64,000 nt of DNA from Thermoanaerobaculia bacterium (GTDB lineage: Bacteria; Acidobacteriota; Thermoanaerobaculia; Gp7-AA8): assembly GCA_017883205.1 (NCBI GenBank), contig JADGNZ010000011.1, forward strand, positions 62,001 through 126,000. Reading direction: 5' to 3'. The notes under the pieces are model-generated. The model saw nothing but the letters and a program-made list of their open reading frames with translations, searched no databases and had not been told where the DNA came from. Each line of letters starts with the position of its first letter. The stretch's first letter is position 1. The position numbers and the translations under genes are program-made. Of this stretch, positions 27,683 through 38,051 are shown one piece after another.

Positions 27683-28708
27683 TTACCGCCGTTGAAGCTC
27701 CGCCCACTCCATCGCGTGATACGTGATGATCAGATCCGCACCCGCGCGTTTGATTGACGTCAGAATCTCATTCATCACGCGCGGTCCGTCGATCCAGCCC
27801 CGTTCCGCCGCCGCCTTCACCATCGAGTACTCGCCGCTCACGTTGTAGGCCGCCACCGGCAGATCGAAGTTCTCGCGCGCGACGCGGATCACATCGAGAT
27901 ACGACAGCGCCGGCTTGACCATGATCATGTCGGCTCCCTCTTCGATGTCGAGCTCCATCTCGCGGATCGCCTCGCGCACGTTCGCCGGATCCATCTGATA
28001 GGTGCGGCGGTCGCCAAACTGCGGCGCTGACTCGGCGGCCTCGCGGAACGGACCGTAGAAGCCGGACGCGTACTTCGCCGAGTAGGCCATGATCCCGACG
28101 TCGGTGAGGCTGGCGTCATCCAGCGCGCTGCGGATCGCGCCCACGCGCCGGTCCATCATGTCCGAGGGGGCGACGAAATCGGCGCCGGCCGCCGCGAAGG
28201 AAACCGCCTGCTTCGCCAGCAGCGGCAGCGTCTGATCGTTGTCGACATCCTTCACTCCGTTGTGATCGACGATGACGCCGCAGTGTCCGTGGTCGGTGTA
28301 CTCGCAGAGACAGACGTCGGCCATCACCATCATCTGCGGAACGGCGCGCTTGATCGCCTCGATCGCCGATTGCACCGGGCCGGCCGGATCCCACGATGCC
28401 GATCCGATCCCGTCCTTGTACTCGGGCAGACCGAAGAGCAGCAGCGCGCGGATGCCGAGGTCGTGGGCGCGAAGGGCTTCGTCAACGGCCTCGTGAGCGC
28501 GAAGCTGCCACACCCCGGGCATCGATCCGATCTCGATCTTCGGCCTGCTATTCGGCACGACGAACAGCGGATAGATCAGATCCTCGGCACGCACGATCGT
28601 CTCGCGGACCAGCGCCCGGATGGAATCGGTGCGTCGCAGCCGGCGGGGCCGCCGCGTCGTCTGCGTAGTCGTGGTCTCAACCGGCAACGTCATCGTTTTC
28701 GTCGTCAT
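27683..28708 (-). CDS. hemB: Delta-aminolevulinic acid dehydratase (porphobilinogen synthase)
   Basis: 341 residues from the ATG at 28708, which is preceded by GGAGAGA. It joins two 5-aminolevulinate molecules to porphobilinogen in tetrapyrrole synthesis. The zinc or metal segment is [15 protein letters not shown] with three cysteines, so a zinc-dependent enzyme is expected. The Schiff-base lysines lie in [22 protein letters not shown] and [10 protein letters not shown], and [13 protein letters not shown] is also intact. It overlaps the upstream zinc-finger gene by 32 bp, so the two are co-transcribed. Confidence 0.95.
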
Positions 28709-28883
28709 CACTCTCTCCGTAGAAAAAGGCACGTGCACACTCGGGGGAACAGAATCGCCGACCCGTGGCGCGGTAAGCGCAGTCGGTGCAGAAGTACTTC
28801 CCGCAGACCACGCAGCGTTCCAGCCGCGTACTCTCCTCGGGATCGCTGCAGCGGATGCATCGCCGCTCGTCAACGTCGGACAT
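28677..28883 (-). CDS. Small zinc-finger protein overlapping hemB
   Basis: 68 residues with seven or eight cysteines: [16 protein letters not shown] and [11 protein letters not shown], two likely zinc sites of treble-clef/B-box appearance. The C-terminus is acidic ([13 protein letters not shown]). The last 32 bp overlap the start of hemB in another frame. It reads as a genuine small gene because the Cys pairs are regularly spaced. Function unknown; a role linked to HemB metal supply would be speculation. Confidence 0.75.
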
Positions 28884-28952: not shown

Positions 28953-29029
28953 GGCGGTGTAGCTCAGATGGTCAGAGCGGGCGTCTCATAAGCGCTAGGT
29001 CCCCAGTTCGACTCTGGGCACCGCCACCA
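28953..29029 (+). tRNA. tRNA with CAU anticodon (elongator Met, possibly Ile2)
   Basis: A full cloverleaf. The acceptor stem GGCGGTG pairs with CACCGCC, the D-arm is GCTCAGATGGTCAGAGC, the anticodon loop is CTCATAA with CAT at 28987-28989, the T-loop is TTCGACT, and CCA is encoded at 29027-29029. CAT can be elongator tRNA-Met or the tRNA-Ile whose C34 is changed to lysidine by TilS. The general pattern favours Met. It lies directly upstream of an accessory block (29.4-33.5 kb). Confidence 0.93.
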
Positions 29030-29410
29030 AGCGAACTTCGGTCACGCCGACCTGCCCGGACGCCGACGAAGCCTGACGGCCACTGCGACGAGGAAGAGAC
29101 ACTCGTCGGACTGGACTGCCGCGGCTCCCGTCGCCGGTCATGGGCTCGCTGACCGCAACCGCCCGAGGCCTTGAGCGCACGGTCGCCGGGTTACCTCGGG
29201 GGATGCAGCTCGTGACATCCGCCTTCGAACTTCGAGACGATTTCAAACTAGGCAACTGTTCACTCAAACCCCAGGGGGCGAACCGTGATGAGTCCGGCTC
29301 TCTCCCTTCGCAAGACAAAGGCGATGGACAAATGCGCCGTGCCCATGAGGATCGAGTGCGTACTACCGTGCGGCGGCGGCGCCACTTCTCCGGTCAGGTA
29401 TCATTCCCGC
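29030..29410. other. Gap between tRNA and methyltransferase
   Basis: About 380 bp. No convincing gene, no integrase and no repeat of the tRNA 3' end were found here or after the accessory genes. The upstream extension of the methyltransferase frame in this gap lacks family similarity. Confidence 0.4.
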
Positions 29411-30247
29411 GTGACGCGCACTCGCTCGACTCCAATTCCGTTCCTCAAGTGGCCCGGCGGCAAACGTTGGCTAACCGAGTACATCCTGACGATTCTGCGA
29501 GGTAAAGAAATCAAGCGCTACTTCGAGCCTTTTCTCGGCGGGGCCGCACTCTATTTTGCACTTAGACCGAAGCGAGCGCTCCTTTCCGATATCAACGTCG
29601 ATCTTATTAACACTTACACGCAGGTGCGCGACTCCCACAAACGCGTGATATCCATCCTAAAACGTATTCCGGTCACGGCGGAAACGTACTACACATTACG
29701 CGATGCCAGGAGTCGCTCGCTCGTTACCCGTGCAGCACACTTCTTGTTCCTAAATCGAACCTCCTTCGCCGGCATCTATCGCCTGAACCGGAGCGGAGCC
29801 TTTAACGTTCCTTACGGCGGAGGAGACCGCAAGCCGAACATTCTCTGGGACAAGAACATACTCGGCGCTGCATCCACAGCTCTTCAGGGCACAACCCTCG
29901 CCGCCTGCGACTTCGAATCGGCTATGCTGCGTGCAAAGAAGGGCGACGTGGTTTATTGCGATCCTACATACACAGTAGCTCATGACAACAACGGATTCGT
30001 TCGATACAATGAGCGCAACTTTACCTGGTCAGACCAAGAGCGTCTCGCTTTGGCTGCTGTGAGAGCAGCATGTGCTGGAGCACTGGTGCTTGTCAGTAAC
30101 GCACACCATCGAGACATCGCAGAACTCCATCGCGGAGCCAAACTCCATATCGTCACGCGCAAGAGCTGTCTCGCTCCGGCTCCTACTTATCGCCGTTCGG
30201 TACGCGAGTATCTTTTCGTGTACCCACCGTCGCCGACGGCTCGATAA
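29411..30247 (+). CDS. D12-class (Dam-type) DNA adenine N6-methyltransferase
   Basis: 278 residues from GTG 29411, which places FLKWPGGKRWLTEYI at the N-terminus as in Dam, DpnM and phage Dam proteins. The SAM-binding motif is FEPFLGGAALYFAL, followed by LSDIN and the family segment FLFLNRTSFAGIYRLNRSG; the catalytic motif is YCDPTY, where DPPY is usual. It would methylate adenine in a short site that cannot be read from sequence (GATC is common for the class). No restriction endonuclease adjoins it. Its 3' end overlaps the convergent Ham1-kinase gene by 65 bp. Base composition looks lower in GC than the flanks. Confidence 0.85.
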   Translation: MTRTRSTPIPFLKWPGGKRWLTEYILTILRGKEIKRYFEPFLGGAALYFALRPKRALLSDINVDLINTYTQVRDSHKRVISILKRIPVTAETYYTLRDARSRSLVTRAAHFLFLNRTSFAGIYRLNRSGAFNVPYGGGDRKPNILWDKNILGAASTALQGTTLAACDFESAMLRAKKGDVVYCDPTYTVAHDNNGFVRYNERNFTWSDQERLALAAVRAACAGALVLVSNAHHRDIAELHRGAKLHIVTRKSCLAPAPTYRRSVREYLFVYPPSPTAR

Positions 30248-31814
30248 CGCGGTCCATGTAGCGGAGATACGCACGACCAGCGCTTAGAATGTCATATCTG
30301 ACTCGCATACCGACCGTTTCCAATCGCGCCACGAGACCCGGGATCCGCTTCAGAACCTTGTTCGCATTATTATATCGAATCGGATGGCCTGCCGCGCTAG
30401 TGGCGGCTTCGATCTCATAGCAGTCCAATGGCCGACCGGCAATGTCAAGTACCCTCAGCGTGTGGTAAGCCTGACTTCGATCACGACCAAGGCGTGGCTG
30501 AACATCCCATGAAACGCCGGCCACTTTTGTATCGCGAACTATGACGGCATCGACTTGGGACCAGTATTGCTCAAGCGACCCTTCGTTCTCAATTCTGATG
30601 TCGGCGAACTCGTCTGCGACCCGCAGGAGCCCAAACATCCCCTGCTCGGCATCGAGCTTTCGAAACGCCTGCAAACTGTTAATTCCGTCGAGCCGGCCTC
30701 GCGCCAGATGGCGTTCAAAGCGAGTCCTCTCCGTCGAGTCGATTAGCACAGTCCGAGCGTCGGGAATCACTTGCTTCAGAAGATCAAGTTCTTCGACCGT
30801 ACGGAACCCGCCGATCACCACGTTACGTTCGGCCTCCGACTCCAGAAGTTCCAGAACCTTACGCGCTACAACATCTGCCCCATTTGCCTTGAGAAAAATG
30901 TCAGCGACCTGGAACGGCGTCAGACTCGGCTCGACTACACCGTCCGCCATCATTCTAAGGACAGCACTGGCCTCCAGGAATCGGTACCTGTGCCTCTCAG
31001 CCGCGCGTTCTCCGAATGTGGTCTTCCCCGCACACGTGTTTCCTAGTACCACAATTACGTCCCTGTCACGTTGCCAAAGCGATGTTTGCCCACTGCCGGC
31101 CACCCTTGCCCGACGTGAATACGCAGTCGGCGAAAGGTTTAGCATCAGAGCGTATTCCTCGAGCCGCTCTACCAACGCAAGCAGTGCGCGGATCCTGAAA
31201 TCATGCTTCCACGACTCCTCAAACGACATCTCGCCGAGTCGTTTGACGGCGCCCTCAGGCACAAACCACCCGTTGAATGTGTGTGGCGTCAGCCAGGGGT
31301 ACTGAATAGATGGGGAGAACGTCGGTCGCGTACTAGCGACCACACCTTGGGTCTCACCGTGAAAGAACACTGCGCGACGAAGAGCAGGAATGTGCAGCGC
31401 GATGTCCGATTTCACTGTGGCTCGGCGCTCACGGCCATGTCGCAATAACTCTTGATCCAACACATCGAAGCTCGTTCCCGCGAACCACTCCTTTACAGAG
31501 AGGCCCGGGAAGTCATCGGTGCCACTCAAGGCTTCGATTCTCAAGGAGGTGTCTTCGACAAAAAAAATCGACGCCCGTCCAACGCGGGCTTGGATCTCCT
31601 CCAAGGCTCGACCGAGCAGCCGCTCCTTGCCCAGAGAGTAGTCTTCGGCGTATGGCTCGGTGTTCGATTTGAAATGCTGGAGCACAAGCCCGACACGCTC
31701 GAAGACGGCTCGCGCCTGAAGGTACTTGTCGACGTTCGAGGTGTGAAATAGCACATCGATCGTGCGTTCGCCGAGCAAGAAGACTTCGCGGAGGTATGGG
31801 CGACCGTCAGTCAT
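30183..31814 (-). CDS. Ham1/RdgB-like NTP pyrophosphatase fused to P-loop kinase and C-terminal DNA-binding-like domain
   Basis: 543 residues. Residues about 18-225 fit the Ham1/ITPase family: SNVDK (26-30), FVEDTSLRIEAL (85-96, matching the family's DDSGLxVDAL), FPGLSV, GWFVPEG and a C-terminal HDFRIRALLAL. Residues about 252-410 form a nucleotide-kinase-like P-loop domain with GNTCAGKTT (258-266) and ERTRFERHLARGR, a possible lid. The last 120 residues (YHTLRVLDIAGRPLDCYEIEAAT...) look like a winged helix. Ham1 enzymes remove non-canonical purine NTPs, and the fused kinase suggests work on an unusual nucleotide. It is the last gene of a coupled operon with the two genes upstream. The combination is unfamiliar to me. 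Confidence 0.8.
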   Translation of the reverse strand: MTDGRPYLREVFLLGERTIDVLFHTSNVDKYLQARAVFERVGLVLQHFKSNTEPYAEDYSLGKERLLGRALEEIQARVGRASIFFVEDTSLRIEALSGTDDFPGLSVKEWFAGTSFDVLDQELLRHGRERRATVKSDIALHIPALRRAVFFHGETQGVVASTRPTFSPSIQYPWLTPHTFNGWFVPEGAVKRLGEMSFEESWKHDFRIRALLALVERLEEYALMLNLSPTAYSRRARVAGSGQTSLWQRDRDVIVVLGNTCAGKTTFGERAAERHRYRFLEASAVLRMMADGVVEPSLTPFQVADIFLKANGADVVARKVLELLESEAERNVVIGGFRTVEELDLLKQVIPDARTVLIDSTERTRFERHLARGRLDGINSLQAFRKLDAEQGMFGLLRVADEFADIRIENEGSLEQYWSQVDAVIVRDTKVAGVSWDVQPRLGRDRSQAYHTLRVLDIAGRPLDCYEIEAATSAAGHPIRYNNANKVLKRIPGLVARLETVGMRVRYDILSAGRAYLRYMDRVIEPSATVGTRKDTRVPNGDK

Positions 31815-32769
31815 CTAAAACCTCGAAGCCCGAGTTTCGCCCCGAGAAGGTGCCTAGCGCAGGGCTACCATTCTGCGCCGCTAAGGACGTTGCAAGATCA
31901 CGCTCCGCATCCGTACGCGTGACCACGTACAGCAGAGGACCCATGCTACTCATTCCTGCCGCAAGCGAGTTCGCTTGCAGTGAGCGGAGAAGTTCACGAA
32001 CACGAGCGCTTTGCCCCTCAAGCTCCTTACGCTTAAACCCTACGGTGTGAAGGTCAACTAGCGATCGAGTTAGCAGAGGAAGATCACATGTGGCAACGGC
32101 AGCCGCGACGCCATGGTACAGCAGTCCAATCGTGGCCAGAGCGTCGCGTTTCAGAATGGGTGCGTGAAGTCTGAAAAACTCGATTTCGTCCGAACCCGAG
32201 TAGTTTCGTCCGAGCGGAACGATTAGGGTAAATTTCCACTCCAGAGGAATGGGGTGTCTCGCTATCACCGGCGGCGGTGTATGTCCGTCAGAGGCGGACG
32301 AAGGAAGAAAAGGGGGCGAGCCGACTCCTTCTGCATGTCCGCCGTCGGTCAGGAAACCACCGTCGAAGAACGTGTTGACGCCAATTCCTGACGCGCCTCC
32401 CCGGCCGCTGATTCTCTGCAACTCCACACGTCGTGCGCTGCGCGCCTTGATCCGGTAAAGGCCGGTGGCTACAGCGAGAAGTAGCGCCGTCTTTGAGCCA
32501 AGGCCGCTGTGCTGGGGTGGCATCTTCTCGACCGTGATCTGGACATCGTCCGCCAACGGCCGCATACGTTCGCAGAGACTCCGCAACTGAGTGACAGTCA
32601 CGCTCTCTATCCCTTCCGGAAGAAGTAGACCATGGCCGTTCCCATGCCGAAAATCGACAATGGTCTGAGGCGCTTCGATAGCGAAGCCAGCACCACCGAA
32701 GCGCCGTGACGTGGCGCCCGCGAGATCCGCGAGTGCCACGTGGATGCGTGGGAAGGAGATGATCTTCAT
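31807..32769 (-). CDS. GHMP-kinase fold protein of the beta-RFAP synthase type
   Basis: 320 residues beginning MKIISFPRIHVALADLAG, the N-terminal pattern of beta-ribofuranosylaminobenzene 5'-phosphate synthases. The GHMP ATP-loop equivalent is PQHSGLGSKTALLLA (85-99), and SGRGGASGIGVNTFFDGG followed by DGGH (121-145) is the signature of that family. Beta-RFAP synthase couples PRPP with p-hydroxy- or p-aminobenzoate in methanopterin synthesis. No other methanopterin gene is seen here, so the enzyme probably makes a different C-glycoside-like or phosphoribosyl product (inference). It overlaps the upstream gene by 4 bp and the downstream gene by 8 bp. Confidence 0.8.
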   Translation of the reverse strand: MKIISFPRIHVALADLAGATSRRFGGAGFAIEAPQTIVDFRHGNGHGLLLPEGIESVTVTQLRSLCERMRPLADDVQITVEKMPPQHSGLGSKTALLLAVATGLYRIKARSARRVELQRISGRGGASGIGVNTFFDGGFLTDGGHAEGVGSPPFLPSSASDGHTPPPVIARHPIPLEWKFTLIVPLGRNYSGSDEIEFFRLHAPILKRDALATIGLLYHGVAAAVATCDLPLLTRSLVDLHTVGFKRKELEGQSARVRELLRSLQANSLAAGMSSMGPLLYVVTRTDAERDLATSLAAQNGSPALGTFSGRNSGFEVLDD

Positions 32770-33524
32770 TCACCCGCACGCAGGGCCGTCACACTGAGTG
32801 TTTCGTCGGACCAAATCGCGTCGAACTGGCCGACGATCCGGTCGAATAGGATTCCGCCGCGTCGAAAAAGAATCGTCGGAGAGTTTCGACTGGGCTGTTT
32901 CAAGAGGTAAGGGCCGAAGAACACTTCGTCATCAATGCGGAAGATGTTCATGGTTGGTAGGCATCGATACAATCGAACCTCGAAGGGGTGACGTCCCGAA
33001 GAATTCATGATAGGAGTCACAGCTCGCACAAAATCAAGAACTTCCTGTGTGATTGTGCCAACGGTCTGCCTCTCCTCGACGTCACGTTGCGACGCGTAGG
33101 GCGCGGCGTGCGGAAAGTGAGGATCGAGCAGGAGTATTCGGACATGAGCCTTCTCTCGCCATCTCGCAAAGTGATCGAAGTAATCTTCGCGAAATGCGCG
33201 AAGGCCGAAGCCCATAACGTCGATGTGTTCGCGCGCGTCCGTTAGGCGGCTGTCGTACTCCTCACGAATCCGCACCGATCGTGCGGCGAAGATATTGGAC
33301 AGGCCAAACTCGCTCAGAATACGCAGGCGAGCACTGACGTCTCTCGACAGAAAGATGTATAGGAACACCGTCCAGCCCGTGATCCCGGCCGCGACAAGGG
33401 AAGTTCCGACGCTAATCCACGTCGTGCTCTCGAGCCGAATTAGGAAGACTCCGACGCAAAACACGATCGCGTGCGTGAGCAGGTAAACCCAGTGCGTTGG
33501 ATCAATGCGAAAACGATGTTTCAT
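32766..33524 (-). CDS. Membrane-anchored PLD-superfamily-like protein
   Basis: 252 residues. Two adjacent membrane helices (WVYLLTHAIVFCVGVFLIRL and WISVGTSLVAAGITGWTVFL) are followed by a cytoplasmic domain: HIDVMGFGLRAFREDYFDHF, VRILLLDPHFPHA and ... NIFRIDDEVFFGPYLL. That strand order resembles phospholipase-D-fold domains of the DUF5919-like group, but the catalytic HxK motif is absent, so it may sense or bind rather than cleave. It is the first gene of the three-gene operon, with ATGA overlap into the GHMP gene. Confidence 0.7.
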   Translation of the reverse strand: MKHRFRIDPTHWVYLLTHAIVFCVGVFLIRLESTTWISVGTSLVAAGITGWTVFLYIFLSRDVSARLRILSEFGLSNIFAARSVRIREEYDSRLTDAREHIDVMGFGLRAFREDYFDHFARWREKAHVRILLLDPHFPHAAPYASQRDVEERQTVGTITQEVLDFVRAVTPIMNSSGRHPFEVRLYRCLPTMNIFRIDDEVFFGPYLLKQPSRNSPTILFRRGGILFDRIVGQFDAIWSDETLSVTALRAGE

Positions 33525-33787
33525 CGGGTGGCTCGCAGGTGCAGCGCGCCGAGATCCGTGTGAAGCGAATCCGGCGTGACCATCATTTCAATCTACCTTC
33601 CGCATAGGAGTACTTTACACCTCGACGGACGTGCCGTGCGTTTCGCGCCTCCACTTCTGTCACCACCAGTTCGCAAATCCGCTTGCACGCCGGAGAGTGG
33701 CGGCAGGCTCCATGGATGCGTACCGGACGCACAACTATCCCTTCCAGATCACGTGATTGGTGTTGGGCACGATTCGCCCGCGGCGAT

Positions 33788-35029
33788 TCAATGCCGCGCC
33801 GCCCTCCGCCGCTGCCCTGCGATCAAGTCGTCGTGCGCTTGAAACACCGCGCTTGGAAATGCGTTCGCGTTCGCTGGGAAGATTTCGATGTATTGAGCGC
33901 GCAGCGAGTTGGTTTGGCCGAGGGGGAAGATGCCGGTTTCCAGCATGCTGAGGAACGTCGCGTCGGTGCATGGAGTGGGGTTCGTGACGGGCTCGGAGCA
34001 TCCTGCGCCCTGTCCGGTCGATCCGAAATAGTTGTTGGTCTGGAAGGCCGCGAAGGTGCCGAGGGTCTGGGCGGCCTGGGTCACGGTGCTCGATGCTGTC
34101 TCACCGGGCATCAGGAAGTTGAACTGAACGACCAGCCGCGCGGGAAGCTTGTGGCTTGCCTGCGCGAGAAGCGCTTGATTCTGGTCGGGGGGCGTGCCTT
34201 TGATGACTGATCCATCCTCTCCGATCGGGGGGAACGCGTTCTGCGGGATGATGGCCACGCTGAACGACTTGTCGGGAAAACTCTTCACGAACGAGTTGGT
34301 GATTTGATCCCAGGCCTGGAGCAAGCGCGAAGGGCGGAAGCCGGCCTGCTGCCACGTCGCGACGGCATCGCTCACACACGCCAGCCCCGTGCTCTGCGGA
34401 GTCTCAGCGGGCAACCGAAACTCGTCGGTGGTCCGATTGACGCCTGTCAGGCGAAGAAGTGTAACCGCGCTGTACGTTCCATCGGCCTTCAGATGCGCGG
34501 CGACGGCCGCCAACAGCAGATCCCATCGGTTCAGAAACGCCGCATCCCAAGGCGCGGCGATCGTCTCCGTATCGCACACGCCGGTCGCGCCGCTGTGCGG
34601 AGAGATGGTGAAGGTCAGCGGGCTCGCCCCGGCACCCGAGGGCGCGGCCTGAAACAGCCACGACGGAGTATCGGTACCGGCAGTGATCGTCAGGTCGATC
34701 TTCTTCCCCGCGGCGACGGCGCGATGCGTCCATTGATCGAGCGTCGTCCATTGGTATTGCCCCATCGCCGGCTCGATCGAGCTCCAACTGATGACGAGCA
34801 CGATGCCATCCACTCCGGGCACGCCGAGCGATGCGGTGACGTTGTTGGCGTAGCCTTTGGAGATCTGCGAGACATCGCTGCTGTAGACGTAGATCCCCCG
34901 AAGGTCAGCAGCGTGGATCCGCGGAGCAACGAGCGCGCACGCCACGAACGTCGATGCGATGATTGCGCGCCGCGCAACGAGACCTCTTCCGCCCGACGGC
35001 GAAGCAACGCTGTTCCCTGCAAACCACAC
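33788..35029 (-). CDS. Secreted protein with glycoside-hydrolase-like TIM-barrel features
   Basis: 413 residues. An N-terminal signal region (RRAIIASTFVACALVAPRIHAAD) is followed by LRGIYVYSSDVSQISKGYANN and VDGIVLVISWSSIEPAMGQYQWTTLDQW. The phrase 'W-SxIEPAxGxYxW' is typical of beta-galactosidase or other (beta/alpha)8 glycosidases of families 5/42 at the second strand. Catalytic glutamates cannot be assigned with confidence. Alternative starts lie within the first 20 codons. Substrate unknown. No carbohydrate operon surrounds it. Confidence 0.65.
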   Translation of the reverse strand: MWFAGNSVASPSGGRGLVARRAIIASTFVACALVAPRIHAADLRGIYVYSSDVSQISKGYANNVTASLGVPGVDGIVLVISWSSIEPAMGQYQWTTLDQWTHRAVAAGKKIDLTITAGTDTPSWLFQAAPSGAGASPLTFTISPHSGATGVCDTETIAAPWDAAFLNRWDLLLAAVAAHLKADGTYSAVTLLRLTGVNRTTDEFRLPAETPQSTGLACVSDAVATWQQAGFRPSRLLQAWDQITNSFVKSFPDKSFSVAIIPQNAFPPIGEDGSVIKGTPPDQNQALLAQASHKLPARLVVQFNFLMPGETASSTVTQAAQTLGTFAAFQTNNYFGSTGQGAGCSEPVTNPTPCTDATFLSMLETGIFPLGQTNSLRAQYIEIFPANANAFPSAVFQAHDDLIAGQRRRAARH

Positions 35030-35235
35030 TGCTCCTCCTCACCGGGCGCGGGAAACATCGCGCAGGGACGGCGGGATTGTCAAGAGGCGACGACCAGGCG
35101 CGTGCGCTCGGCGGCGAGGACGCCGCCGGGCCAGCCGCCGGGACGGCGGCGTTCCATCCGCTCCGAGCGAATCTCCCCTGTTCATCCCTCCGCATCTCCG
35201 CGTCTCCGCGTGACCGCCTTTGATATCGTTCCAAA

Positions 35236-35835
35236 ATGCGTCAAACGTGCATCTCTGCGATCGTCGTATTGATACTGAGCACTCCCCTCTTCGCCGCCGA
35301 CGAATTCACGTTGTACGAGCTCCTGCCTCCGCAGAGCCACCAGTTCGCGATCACCTACGACGTGACGCAGGCGAAGGAAGGGGCGGAATGGTTTTTTAAT
35401 CCGATTCGTGTGGGCTCGATCGCCACCAAAGAGCGCGTGATCGCGCGGGCTTCCGGCGAGGATCTGAAGTTCGAGGTTGTCAGCGGCAAGGAGGCGAAGA
35501 CGAGCGGGCTCGTGTCACCGACGACGGCTGACGATGCGCAGTTCATTCGCGTTCATCTGCCGGGGCCGGTGCCGAAGGGTGGGCAGACGCGGATTCGCAT
35601 CATCAAGACGTATACCGACGCGAAGTCGTACGACGTGAAAGACGGCCTGCTCGTGTTCGAGCGGCCCCTTGGCATCAAGCGCAATGTCGTGCTGCTGCCG
35701 AAGGGATGGGAGCTGGTCGGCTGCGGGTCGCCGGGTATCGTTTCCACCGATGCCGATGGCCGCGTTCGCGTCAGTTTCCTCAACGATCGCGATGATCAGT
35801 TGCCTGTGAAGCTCGTCGCGAGGAGCCTGCCATGA
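35236..35835 (+). CDS. Secreted hypothetical protein
   Basis: 199 residues with signal peptide MRQTCISAIVVLILSTPLFA-ADE. The mature chain is beta-rich, with the features HQFAITYDVTQ, PKGGQTRIRIIKTYTDAKSYDVKDG and NVVLLPKGWELVGCGSPGIVS. The gene downstream encodes a protein with the same layout (HQFRISHDFTVT, RIRVQETYTDPVGY, NYVTLPPGWMLTSVNTPAVIS), so the two are tandem paralogs. The stop overlaps the next start (ATGA), implying coupled translation. No known family recognised. Confidence 0.75.
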   Translation: MRQTCISAIVVLILSTPLFAADEFTLYELLPPQSHQFAITYDVTQAKEGAEWFFNPIRVGSIATKERVIARASGEDLKFEVVSGKEAKTSGLVSPTTADDAQFIRVHLPGPVPKGGQTRIRIIKTYTDAKSYDVKDGLLVFERPLGIKRNVVLLPKGWELVGCGSPGIVSTDADGRVRVSFLNDRDDQLPVKLVARSLP

Positions 35836-36461
35836 GACGCGCGTTGATTCTGTTTCTCGCGCTCGTTCCCGCATCGCTCCTTGCACAGGAGTCGATTCAT
35901 CGCGCCGAGCAGGATCGGGAGATCAGCTACTGGCTTCTCGATCCGTCCACGCATCAATTCCGAATCTCGCACGACTTCACGGTGACGCGTGTTGGCCAGA
36001 AGTCGGTACACAGCTTCGTGCGCAAGGGCAGCGTGGTCTCGCCTGACGCGAAGATGACCGATCTCGATACGGGCAAAGACCTCGTCACGCACGCCGTTCC
36101 GGGCAAGGATGTCAACGCGTTGGGCTATTACCCGACGCCGGTCGATCCCGATTCCGTTGCCGTGCAGGGCGATCTCGAACATCCGGTGTCCGAGGGAAGG
36201 TCGGCGAGGATTCGGGTGCAGGAGACGTACACCGATCCGGTTGGCTACACGCTCGAAGGCGGCGACCTCGTTTGGAAGCGCACCCTCGGGCGGCCATTGA
36301 ACTACGTGACGTTACCTCCCGGCTGGATGCTGACCTCAGTCAACACGCCTGCCGTGATCTCACTCGACGAAGAAGGCCGGATCAAGCTGCGATTCACCAA
36401 CATTCGCAACGACGAGTTGTCGATCGTGATCAAGGCGCGGCGAAGAATCCCGAAGACGTAG
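35832..36461 (+). CDS. Secreted hypothetical protein, paralog of the preceding gene
   Basis: 209 residues with signal peptide MRRALILFLALVPASLLAQE. Shares the order of conserved segments with the upstream protein: an N-terminal 'YxLLxPxTHQFxIxxDxT' strand pair, a middle 'RIRxxxTYTDxxxY' strand and a C-terminal 'VxLPxGWxLxxxxxPxxIS' segment. Divergence is high, so the duplication is old. Likely periplasmic. The two proteins may form a heteromer, which would fit their translational coupling, but that is inference. Confidence 0.75.
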   Translation: MRRALILFLALVPASLLAQESIHRAEQDREISYWLLDPSTHQFRISHDFTVTRVGQKSVHSFVRKGSVVSPDAKMTDLDTGKDLVTHAVPGKDVNALGYYPTPVDPDSVAVQGDLEHPVSEGRSARIRVQETYTDPVGYTLEGGDLVWKRTLGRPLNYVTLPPGWMLTSVNTPAVISLDEEGRIKLRFTNIRNDELSIVIKARRRIPKT

Positions 36462-36475
36462 TCGCGGGCGCGTTC

Positions 36476-37207
36476 CTACACGTACATCGCGGCGGCGGAC
36501 TCCCACTCGTGCGCGATGTTGCGCATGATCAGGGCACAGTCGAAGGCGATGCTGCCGGCGGGGAAGAGCTCCTGATTCGAGAAGTAGCTCGACTCGACCG
36601 ATTCGACGTGGAGCGGCTGAACTTCCCACGTCGTTGTGCGGAGGACGATGCCGTCGAGCATGTGCCCCGAGGCGGTCGCGGAATAGCCGAGGGATCCAGG
36701 TTCGAAGAATGCGGAGGCGTCAGCCAGCGACCCGAAGATGGATCCAGCCGGTAACTCGGAAACGACGCTTGCCGCCACACGAACTCCTACTACATGGTCG
36801 CTCGACGCCATCTCGAGCCGAACGTGATTGCCGTCGTCGCTGACGTCGAATCGAGCGCGATGGTGCTCGCCGGGGAAGAGTCTCCCGCCAGCCAGTTGAT
36901 TCAGCAGCGAGCTGGAGTCGCGTCGCGGGATGTACACACCTTCGTGCTCGCCATCAGTGTCATTCCAGACGACTGCGAATCGGTGCGCGGCGTTCTCGCT
37001 CGATAGCCCCAGCATCTGGGGAAAGCGGCGCGGACGAATCCCTTCCAGGCGGATGAGGCAAATGCCGCCGACCGCGAAACCTGCGTGCAGCTTCGGCCGG
37101 AAGGGCGCTGGCAGTTGACGCTGTGCGGCGGCCGGATCGATACGAAAATTGACGAGTAACCTGCGACGAATGATGCCGTGCACCCGAGGGAGACGCATCG
37201 CTTTCAC
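36476..37207 (-). CDS. DUF2071 family protein
   Basis: 243 residues. The N-terminus VHGIIRRRLLVNFRIDPAAAQRQLPAPFRPKL and then GFAVGGICLIRLEGIRPRRFP match DUF2071, a family with an acetoacetate decarboxylase-like fold and no defined reaction. The central EGVYIPRRDSSS and VVGVRVAASV segments fit the same family. It overlaps by 4 bp the small gene upstream, so the two form a unit. Convergent with the secreted paralog pair, with only 14 bp between stop codons. Confidence 0.75.
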   Translation of the reverse strand: MKAMRLPRVHGIIRRRLLVNFRIDPAAAQRQLPAPFRPKLHAGFAVGGICLIRLEGIRPRRFPQMLGLSSENAAHRFAVVWNDTDGEHEGVYIPRRDSSSLLNQLAGGRLFPGEHHRARFDVSDDGNHVRLEMASSDHVVGVRVAASVVSELPAGSIFGSLADASAFFEPGSLGYSATASGHMLDGIVLRTTTWEVQPLHVESVESSYFSNQELFPAGSIAFDCALIMRNIAHEWESAAAMYV

Positions 37208-37371
37208 GCCTCGCCCGTGAATCGATCGCCGATCCAGGCATTCCGCGCCTTCTCATCGCGCGCCGAGTAGAGAAACTGCGTCCACGTCTTCTGTTCGTGG
37301 ATGACCGCGCCGAGCTCCCAGACGCAGAACACCGGGTAGTGCTTGTAGGAGTCGGGGACGTTGCCGGTCAT
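37204..37371 (-). CDS. Small hypothetical protein upstream of the DUF2071 gene
   Basis: 55 residues: MTGNVPDSYKHYPVFCVWEL, then GAVIHEQKTWTQFLYSARDEKARNAWIGDRFTGEA. Start ATG at 37371; the stop overlaps the DUF2071 start by 4 bp. Balanced composition and aromatic residues suggest a real small protein rather than a shadow frame. Family not recognised. Confidence 0.5.
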   Translation of the reverse strand: MTGNVPDSYKHYPVFCVWELGAVIHEQKTWTQFLYSARDEKARNAWIGDRFTGEA

Positions 37372-37402
37372 TCGCAAATCATATCCGCCGCAGTAAAACC
37401 GT

Positions 37403-37463
37403 TTCACGCGGAGACGCGGAGGGGCGGAGAAATCACTCCGCGGTCTCCGCGTCTCCGCGTGAA
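37403..37463. repeat. Inverted repeat (CGCGGAGA family)
   Basis: Outer arms TTCACGCGGAGACGCGGA (37403-37420) and its exact complement (37446-37463); inner parts pair partly. Same outer arms as 24065-24126, with a different interior. Confidence 0.88.
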
Positions 37464-37512
37464 AAATCTGGCAGTGGTGCCATACTGGATTCCGAACCTT
37501 AAGGAGGATTCC

Positions 37513-37989
37513 GTGCCGGCAAGAAAGAGCACTTCGATTCTTGTATTGACGCTGACCACGATCGCTTTGCTCGCCGCTGCGGCCCACGCCGGTGCGCCTC
37601 TCAAGGGTGTCGACGTCAAGCTGGGAAAGGCTCCCGGCGGAGGAGCTTCCGCACGCACGACCAACGCCGACGGGAAGCTCGACCTCGGCGTTCTGCCGGC
37701 CGGCTCGTATTACCTGATCATCAGCGCTCCAAAGGGGACGGACGTGACTCGCGATCCCGAGGCGCAGATCGAGATCAAGGGTGCGACGGGCGGCACGGTC
37801 AAGAAGCGTTGGGACTACGCGAAGAAGAAGGCGTTCGACGTCGCGCCTGCCGATTCGTCCGCGAGAGTCGCTGCGCCTGTCGGTGAGGAGAAGATCATCT
37901 TCACCTCCGACGGCATCCACCCGATCGTGATAGGCGCCAGCACCAACGCCACAATCGTCAAATCCAAATCGAACATCACCAACAACTGA
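37513..37989 (+). CDS. Secreted hypothetical protein with carboxypeptidase-regulatory-like fold
   Basis: 158 residues from GTG 37513, fixed by AAGGAGG 6 nt upstream. The signal peptide TSILVLTLTTIALLAAAAHA ends at AGAPL. The mature part has TTNADGKLDLGVLPAGSYYLIIS, the usual strand-turn of carboxypeptidase-regulatory (CnaB-like) beta-sandwich domains. The C-terminus is rich in Ile, Thr, Lys and Asn. Probably periplasmic. Function unknown. Confidence 0.75.
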   Translation: MPARKSTSILVLTLTTIALLAAAAHAGAPLKGVDVKLGKAPGGGASARTTNADGKLDLGVLPAGSYYLIISAPKGTDVTRDPEAQIEIKGATGGTVKKRWDYAKKKAFDVAPADSSARVAAPVGEEKIIFTSDGIHPIVIGASTNATIVKSKSNITNN

Positions 37990-38051
37990 CGAGGGTTAAC
38001 TCTATCGTCATCGTCGAGGCCATCCGCCGTTTCCTCGCTGCACACGAACTT

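Follow-up and report, generated by a model that had tools for sequence, protein, structure and literature searches.

What could an operon do that joins a membrane protein, a GHMP-fold, synthase-like protein and a fusion of a nucleotide pyrophosphatase with a kinase? The question is raised by a 64,000-nucleotide stretch of DNA from a Thermoanaerobaculia bacterium of the phylum Acidobacteriota (contig JADGNZ010000011.1, positions 62,001 to 126,000; hereafter the window), in which three overlapping open reading frames (ORFs) occupy positions 30183-33524 of the minus strand. A first-pass annotation, made from the sequence alone, had described them as an unrecognised operon encoding a phospholipase D (PLD)-like membrane protein, a protein of the beta-ribofuranosylaminobenzene 5'-phosphate (beta-RFAP) synthase type and a Ham1-kinase fusion, and had suggested that they could make, sense or destroy a modified nucleotide, in conflict with phages or in signalling. 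The three ORFs lie exactly where it placed them, with overlaps of 4 and 8 bp, and their domain content is also as it described: gene 1 has two helices and a PLD fold without the HxK motif, gene 2 matches the beta-RFAP synthase family hidden Markov model (HMM) TIGR00144 with 167.9 bits, above the cut-off of 113.5, and gene 3 matches Pfam Ham1p_like with E 2.8e-12. The lower GC content (guanine plus cytosine) that it had noticed is real, the operon having 57.0% against 62.4% in the window outside 29030-33600; only 1.3% of segments of equal size are this low, and every one of them overlaps the operon stretch. The parts come from known families and, as far as we found, their combination is new. 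We consider this cassette a good candidate for a novel form of bacterial immunity, and it probably takes some part in conflicts with phages or plasmids.

The first point to settle was whether the three genes belong together. A tblastn search of plasmids found the gene 2 (GHMP) and gene 3 (Ham1-kinase) homologs adjacent in two Rhizobium plasmids; an alignment of four sequences, run against 84,980 genomes, added 16 loci, and further ones came from IMG/VR (one), from the family of the window's organism (one) and from a methylotroph family. The order membrane protein, GHMP protein, Ham1-kinase is kept in all 25 distinct loci, mostly with overlapping genes; this count leaves out loci fetched a second time and L022, which nearly duplicates L021. 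Because the same genes stand in the same order in every locus, their association is not due to chance. The loci are found in the window's own phylum, in Chloroflexota (Candidatus Chloroploca), Chlorobi and Bacteroidota, and in Alpha-, Beta- and Gammaproteobacteria. The Ham1-kinase of Chloroploca is 53% identical to that of the window and the one of L042 48%, while elsewhere identity is 23-30%. Gene 1 alone found no plasmid relative by tblastn, although the plasmid operons do contain one, because the membrane protein diverges fastest. Concerning novelty, none of the three genes matched the models of PADLOC-DB 2.0 (2023) up to E 1, which together with the co-occurrence bears out the view of the operon as unrecognised, and no description of the gene set was found in the open-access literature; a preprint or a subscription paper could exist.

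Profiles built in this analysis separate the membrane proteins into two types, A (six loci: the window, L026, L042, L061, L031 and L034) and B (19 loci). A divergent D12 DNA methylase lies upstream in 17 of the 19 type B loci, usually as the first gene of the operon and overlapping the next one; in L041 a 174-aa ORF stands between methylase and cassette, and in L038 only the methylase C-terminus is on the contig. No type A locus has an intact D12 methylase (0/6), an outcome with a probability of 28/177100, about 1.6e-4, if the loci are treated as independent, which they are not. Where the first-pass annotation saw three genes, the cassette is often one of four, with a methylase of its own. Two Methylomonas genomes show a swap of types directly: their loci L031 and L032 share 89% identity on the upstream side, as far as the N-terminus of the methylase, and 91% from a point inside gene 2 to the end of gene 3; in the stretch between, L032 has the methylase and a type B protein, and L031 has a type A protein whose gene contains an in-frame stop. 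In L034, a 76-residue methylase remnant adjoins the type A protein. From this swap and this remnant, it appears that the methylase and the type B protein are exchanged together, as one module, on a constant core of genes 2 and 3. As a separate observation, L061 has, where other loci have the D12 methylase, a small-molecule O-methyltransferase (PF00891; L061:10769-11764), with a 4 bp overlap with the membrane-protein gene, which perhaps modifies a nucleotide or an acceptor.

The presence of the methylase as first gene in those 17 type B loci raises the possibility of a restriction-modification or DNA-hypermodification system, in which the methylase would mark host DNA, genes 2 and 3 would supply a modified nucleotide or cofactor, and the PLD protein would be the nuclease. 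Restriction-modification genes do adjoin some copies of the cassette, and the PLD fold includes the restriction nucleases SauUSI, NgoAVII and BfiI. However, the type A loci, with the window among them, do without a cassette methylase, and the PLD domain lacks HxK in the alignment and is tethered to the membrane, so that we regard this explanation as improbable.

The distribution of the cassette is patchy. Of 18 genomes in the window's family 2 carry it, and of two in the same genus neither does; it is also present in 1 of 396 genomes of a phylum sample and in 9 of 237 genomes of a methylotroph family. In the window it lies in an interval of about 9 kb between a tRNA-Met gene and tilS (29030-38051), which in four compared family members holds other genes or measures only about 0.6 kb (G042, G029). 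Two sister species (L062, L063) have a second copy of the tRNA-Met 3' end 5-7 kb away, with unrelated cargo, and one of them has a bSEFIR protein and a GHKL ATPase in the interval. A duplicated tRNA 3' end is the trace left by tRNA-integrated elements, and the interval is an integration hotspot in the window's family. A repeat of the tRNA 3' end was also sought in the window as an attachment site; none was found there, although one is present at the same tRNA in the two sister species.

A second shared site is found on plasmids of Rhizobium, two of which (L019, L020) carry different cassettes at one place in opposite orientation, beside an arabinofuranosidase/ABC-transporter operon. Among eleven further plasmids, this place is taken by Dsr1 in one (E 1e-111), by GajA (E 1e-239), of the Gabija system, with a helicase in another, by an Avs3a-like protein (E 8e-53) and by ThyX with PDC-M65A/B in one each, and it is empty in several, with an EAL or TraA gene next. 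The site (L019, L020, L075, L078, L079, L084) is a defence hotspot; the ThyX gene beside PDC-M65A/B is curious in itself. That the cassette moves as a unit is indicated by the comparison of a Rhizobium plasmid with Mesorhizobium, where the cassette alone is 83.6% identical over 4.49 kb and no other match exists between the loci. Its neighbours elsewhere include HsdM/HsdS (L029), HsdR (L041), AbiV with a serine recombinase (L027), an Eco57I-type methylase (L042), an Xre/MbcA-type antitoxin (L061) and transposases (L026, L028). Directly downstream of the cassette, two rhizobia carry a DUF5677-like gene (L020:13605-14426) and the AbiV (HEPN) gene (L027:11762-12469), which are possible extra effectors.

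The cassette is therefore patchy and mobile, and it occupies sites that elsewhere hold known defence genes, the site in the window itself being the tRNA-Met/tilS interval with its bSEFIR gene in a sister species. Because it has patchiness, mobility and a defence hotspot in common with defence systems, the earlier idea of a conflict system gains support, while the modified-nucleotide product and the signal are still what we infer. These same features count against a purely metabolic or house-cleaning cassette, one that would serve a specialised cofactor or small molecule, or remove damaged nucleotides, with no role in conflict. Every enzyme part does derive from metabolic families, and the O-methyltransferase of L061 occupies the same operon position as the methylase; but such a cassette would hardly be expected to be absent from sister species and to sit at defence hotspots, nor to have a membrane pseudo-PLD partner in every locus, and we consider this explanation quite unlikely.

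What the cassette could make depends on gene 2. The equivalog HMM for beta-RFAP synthase, NF040726, gives it 185.5 bits, far under the cut-off of 328, and its only solved relatives are entries of ForT (E 8e-28). PRPP (phosphoribosyl pyrophosphate) is contacted in ForT by R19, H99, T106, R135, S139 and S142 (PMC8183095), and the catalytic or acceptor residues are S21, T138, S174, E211, K263 and Q266; the enzyme dies on loss of the glutamate E211, and kcat of the T138A variant is down only about threefold (PMC9832568). The window protein has the PRPP contacts R19, H99, T106, R135 and S139 and the catalytic E211 and K263, all seven. Its equivalents of the PRPP contacts are R8, H87, T94, R123 and S127, with G at the position of S142, and at S21/T138/S174/E211/K263/Q266 it has H10, A126, S157, E195, K246 and E249. 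In a table of 21 cassette proteins, R19, R135, S139, S174, E211 and K263 are kept in all, H99 in 19 and T106 in 20. The two ForT residues that hold the retained carboxylate, S21 and Q266, are replaced by H and E in 21/21, and the glutamate at position 266 is private to the cassette proteins.

Compared with ForT and PyfQ, the synthases of formycin and pyrazofurin, the cassette protein therefore shares the GHMP fold, the PRPP contacts, E211, K263 and the Ser174 position, but it differs at S21 and Q266, forms a separate clade, and has no formycin genes around it. ForT and a Mesorhizobium relative carry instead an S/T/S/K/Q signature in the acceptor site, T138 being V in the crystallised ForT variant. 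With beta-RFAP synthases it has in common the family HMM, a histidine at ForT position 21 and the PRPP motif. Proteins from methanopterin clusters, or grouping with them, have R or H at position 138, A (one R) at 263 and Q at 266, whereas the cassette proteins have T, A or V at 138, K at 263 and E at 266, so that the acceptor-site residues differ in every case. In a maximum-likelihood tree, the cassette proteins stand on one side of a branch with support 90/84, and the methanopterin-like and ForT-like groups have 100/99 each.

The match to TIGR00144 above its cut-off might suggest that gene 2 is simply the beta-RFAP synthase of the tetrahydromethanopterin pathway, with unrelated neighbours. 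Its NF040726 score, its own clade and its acceptor site all argue otherwise, and no methanopterin cluster surrounds the cassette. One marker enzyme of the pathway, methenyl-tetrahydromethanopterin cyclohydrolase (MCH, PF02289), is absent from the window's genome, while three archaeal controls were positive. The explanation is largely refuted and we give it hardly any weight. The first-pass annotation had named two findings that would speak against its own view, the three genes not occurring together in other genomes and the GHMP protein clustering with a complete methanopterin pathway; the genes do co-occur elsewhere, and the GHMP protein stands apart from the real methanopterin-cluster proteins. 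Of its label, a beta-RFAP synthase-type protein, the PRPP residue signature has held; judged by its residues and by the tree, however, gene 2 is neither a methanopterin-type beta-RFAP synthase nor ForT proper, and represents a third group. Because the signature matches ForT, its chemistry would be PRPP-dependent, and the kept residues suggest an active PRPP-using C-ribosyl synthase with another acceptor. Beside these relatives we noted, on plasmid MesoLjLa4 of Mesorhizobium sp. L-2-11 (L023:5965-6996), a C-nucleoside synthase that carries the residue signature of ForT. PurC, PurH and a HAD hydrolase are encoded nearby, and this plasmid of a Lotus symbiont possibly has a C-nucleoside cluster similar to that of formycin.

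Concerning gene 3, the model of its Ham1 half reaches Z 19.9 to PH1917 and 18.6 to dITP-bound KomB, and the residues F23, K30, E57, E87-D88 and R207 are invariant in the cassette proteins. The kinase half has Pfam matches to P-loop kinases just under cut-off. It is closest, in fold and in sequence, to SSO1041 (profile E 7e-20, Z 21.8), a UPF0200-group protein that is related to adenylate kinases and has AMP bound in its structure; the G-K of the Walker A motif and the lid arginines R365, R368, R372 and R374 are invariant. By profile and predicted fold the kinase is thus of the archaeal AdkA/UPF0200 type, from which it differs in being fused to the Ham1 domain and to a tail with a conserved winged-helix-like pattern. 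Among the structure matches listed, none is to the tail itself, which does not exclude that one exists.

Gene 1 has two hydrophobic N-terminal segments by hydropathy (residues about 10-37 and 41-60), followed at residues 72-252 by a PLD fold in the predicted structure, an AlphaFold model built from 17 sequences with a mean pLDDT (predicted local distance difference test) of 81.9. The top VIA Z scores are 13.7 for TrmBL2, 13.2 for FAM83B and 13.1 for SauUSI and TrmB, tied within 1, so that the likeness to the PLD-like sensor domain of TrmB and TrmBL2, although it includes the best match, is scored equally by FAM83B and SauUSI. TrmB and TrmBL2 have a DNA-binding domain attached where gene 1 has its membrane tether. 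The HxK...D motif of the catalytic PLD superfamily is absent from the gene 1 alignment, with no K at +2, and in the type A proteins N replaces the histidine; D198, G204, P205 and S212 are kept. Going by this alignment and the model, the domain is most naturally read as binding a ligand or serving as a scaffold, and catalysis is unlikely.

How could these parts work together? In the reading that we prefer, and that we would put somewhat short of probable, the cassette is a mobile module of the defence type: a C-nucleotide is made and phosphorylated, its triphosphate is hydrolysed or sensed by Ham1, and the response runs through the membrane protein. Gene 2, to judge from its kept active-site residues, would condense PRPP with an aromatic carboxylate to a C-nucleotide 5'-monophosphate, releasing pyrophosphate and probably CO2. 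The kinase half of gene 3 may phosphorylate this product, and a nucleoside diphosphate kinase of the host would complete the triphosphate. The Ham1 half may then bind it, cleave it, or both, and so sense it or switch it off. Gene 1, with its dead PLD domain of the TrmB sensor kind, would be a receptor, a membrane effector, or both; methylase and membrane protein would form an exchangeable sensing or effector module on the invariant core of genes 2 and 3.

A precedent for a sensing Ham1 protein comes from Kongming (KomABC), in which kinase-assisted dITP binds KomB and leads to loss of NAD (PMC12948488, PMC12774641), and it makes such a role plausible here. The two systems would have in common a Ham1-fold protein (for KomB, a link that rests on titles in the PDB), a kinase step and a non-canonical nucleotide. 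The cassette differs in that neither a KomA deaminase nor a SIR2 KomC is found among its genes in the window or in the other loci; it has its own kinase, a C-ribosyl synthase-like protein and a membrane pseudo-PLD protein instead.

The product might also be an antiviral compound rather than a signal, as viperin's ddhCTP (3'-deoxy-3',4'-didehydro-CTP) poisons phage polymerases. The likeness to viperin-type systems lies in a modified nucleotide as the active principle; these use radical-SAM chemistry, the cassette would use PRPP condensation, and it contains no viperin homolog. According to this explanation, a C-nucleotide triphosphate would poison phage polymerases, Ham1 would protect the host, and the membrane protein would regulate or anchor. 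The genomic context would be identical, Ham1 enzymes are known to cleave non-canonical nucleoside triphosphates, and C-nucleotides such as formycin and pyrazofurin are toxic and are used by RNA polymerases (PMC11474200). However, the membrane pseudo-PLD protein is conserved as much as the enzymes (25/25), and the swap of membrane protein and methylase is easier to explain with a sensor or effector role. We consider the antiviral product unlikely.

Several points weigh against the signalling module that we prefer. Its substrate, product, signal and anti-phage effect are all inferred. No gene for aromatic-acid biosynthesis is present in the cassette, so that the acceptor must come from the host. 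ForT position 138 is Ala in the window protein; a Ham1 domain that destroys the product could be mere house-cleaning; defence hotspots carry other cargo too. The only IMG/VR copy, the contig L042, shows no phage hallmark among eight proteins compared with PHROGs. A phage origin of the cassette was also considered and rejected, with no match in the phage collection; viral contigs scanned with single proteins gave no match either, and an alignment was needed to find the L042 copy. The fully specified version would be an immune system in which PRPP is deliberately turned into a C-glycosidic nucleotide, which is phosphorylated within the operon and read or cleared by Ham1; the system would act through a membrane pseudo-PLD receptor, and methylase and receptor would be exchanged as one module. 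This version is tentative and, taken as a whole, rather unlikely.

The coordinates of the operon and of the features beside it are collected in the table. The first-pass annotation had noted that the block follows a tRNA and a Dam-type methylase. Both are real, but the Dam gene is convergent to gene 3 and is not of the cassette type: it is missed by the cassette-methylase HMM, reaches E 0.05 in blastp against the L019 methylase, and shows about 20% identity in alignment. It is probably unrelated to the cassette, and, judged by where Dam proteins usually begin, its true start is probably near 29430. At about 35108-35169 lies a short palindromic repeat, some 50 bp long and similar to REP (repetitive extragenic palindromic) elements; it recurs dozens of times in sister genomes, often as two inverted copies with about 100 bp between them. 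On the minus strand at 28677-28883, a 68-aa cysteine-rich, zinc-finger-like ORF with weak RING/B-box-like matches overlaps the upstream end of a long ALAD ORF.

Table. Positions in the window of the three cassette genes, their domains and the adjoining features
Feature	Position	Strand	Remarks
Gene 1, type A membrane protein, 252 aa	32766..33524	-	two transmembrane helices and PLD-fold domain without HxK
Gene 1, N-terminal membrane helix pair, residues ~9-60	33345..33500	-	hydropathy and model
Gene 1, pseudo-PLD domain, residues 72-252	32769..33311	-	predicted structure
Gene 2, GHMP-fold, ForT/beta-RFAP synthase-like putative PRPP-dependent C-ribosyl synthase, 320 aa	31807..32769	-	
Gene 2, GHMP loop	32488..32514	-	PRPP contacts H87 and T94 (ForT H99, T106)
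Gene 2, GRGGASGIGV motif	32377..32406	-	PRPP contacts R123 and S127 (ForT R135, S139)
Gene 3, Ham1, AdkA/UPF0200-like P-loop kinase and winged-helix-like tail, 543 aa	30183..31814	-	
Gene 3, Ham1/ITPase-like domain, residues ~19-224	31143..31760	-	
Gene 3, AdkA/UPF0200-like kinase domain, residues ~251-430	30525..31064	-	Walker A GNTCAGKT
Gene 3, winged-helix-like C-terminal tail, residues ~443-525	30240..30488	-	conserved sequence and predicted secondary structure only
Dam-family adenine methylase	29285..30247	+	convergent to gene 3, 65 bp overlap; cassette membership doubtful
tRNA-Met	28953..29029	+	borders the variable interval

Known nucleotide-based immune systems rearrange ordinary nucleotides, such as cyclic dinucleotides, NAD derivatives and dITP, and to our knowledge none of them uses the making of a C-nucleotide from PRPP. 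If our reading is true, this would be a new chemistry for immune signalling or for antiviral metabolites and, if confirmed, the cassette would represent a new variant of nucleotide-based immunity. Nucleoside analogues could then be sought in a third group of C-ribosyl synthases, and a UPF0200-like kinase would gain a function open to testing. Through the swap of methylase plus receptor, nature offers an experiment on how the trigger of the module is sensed.

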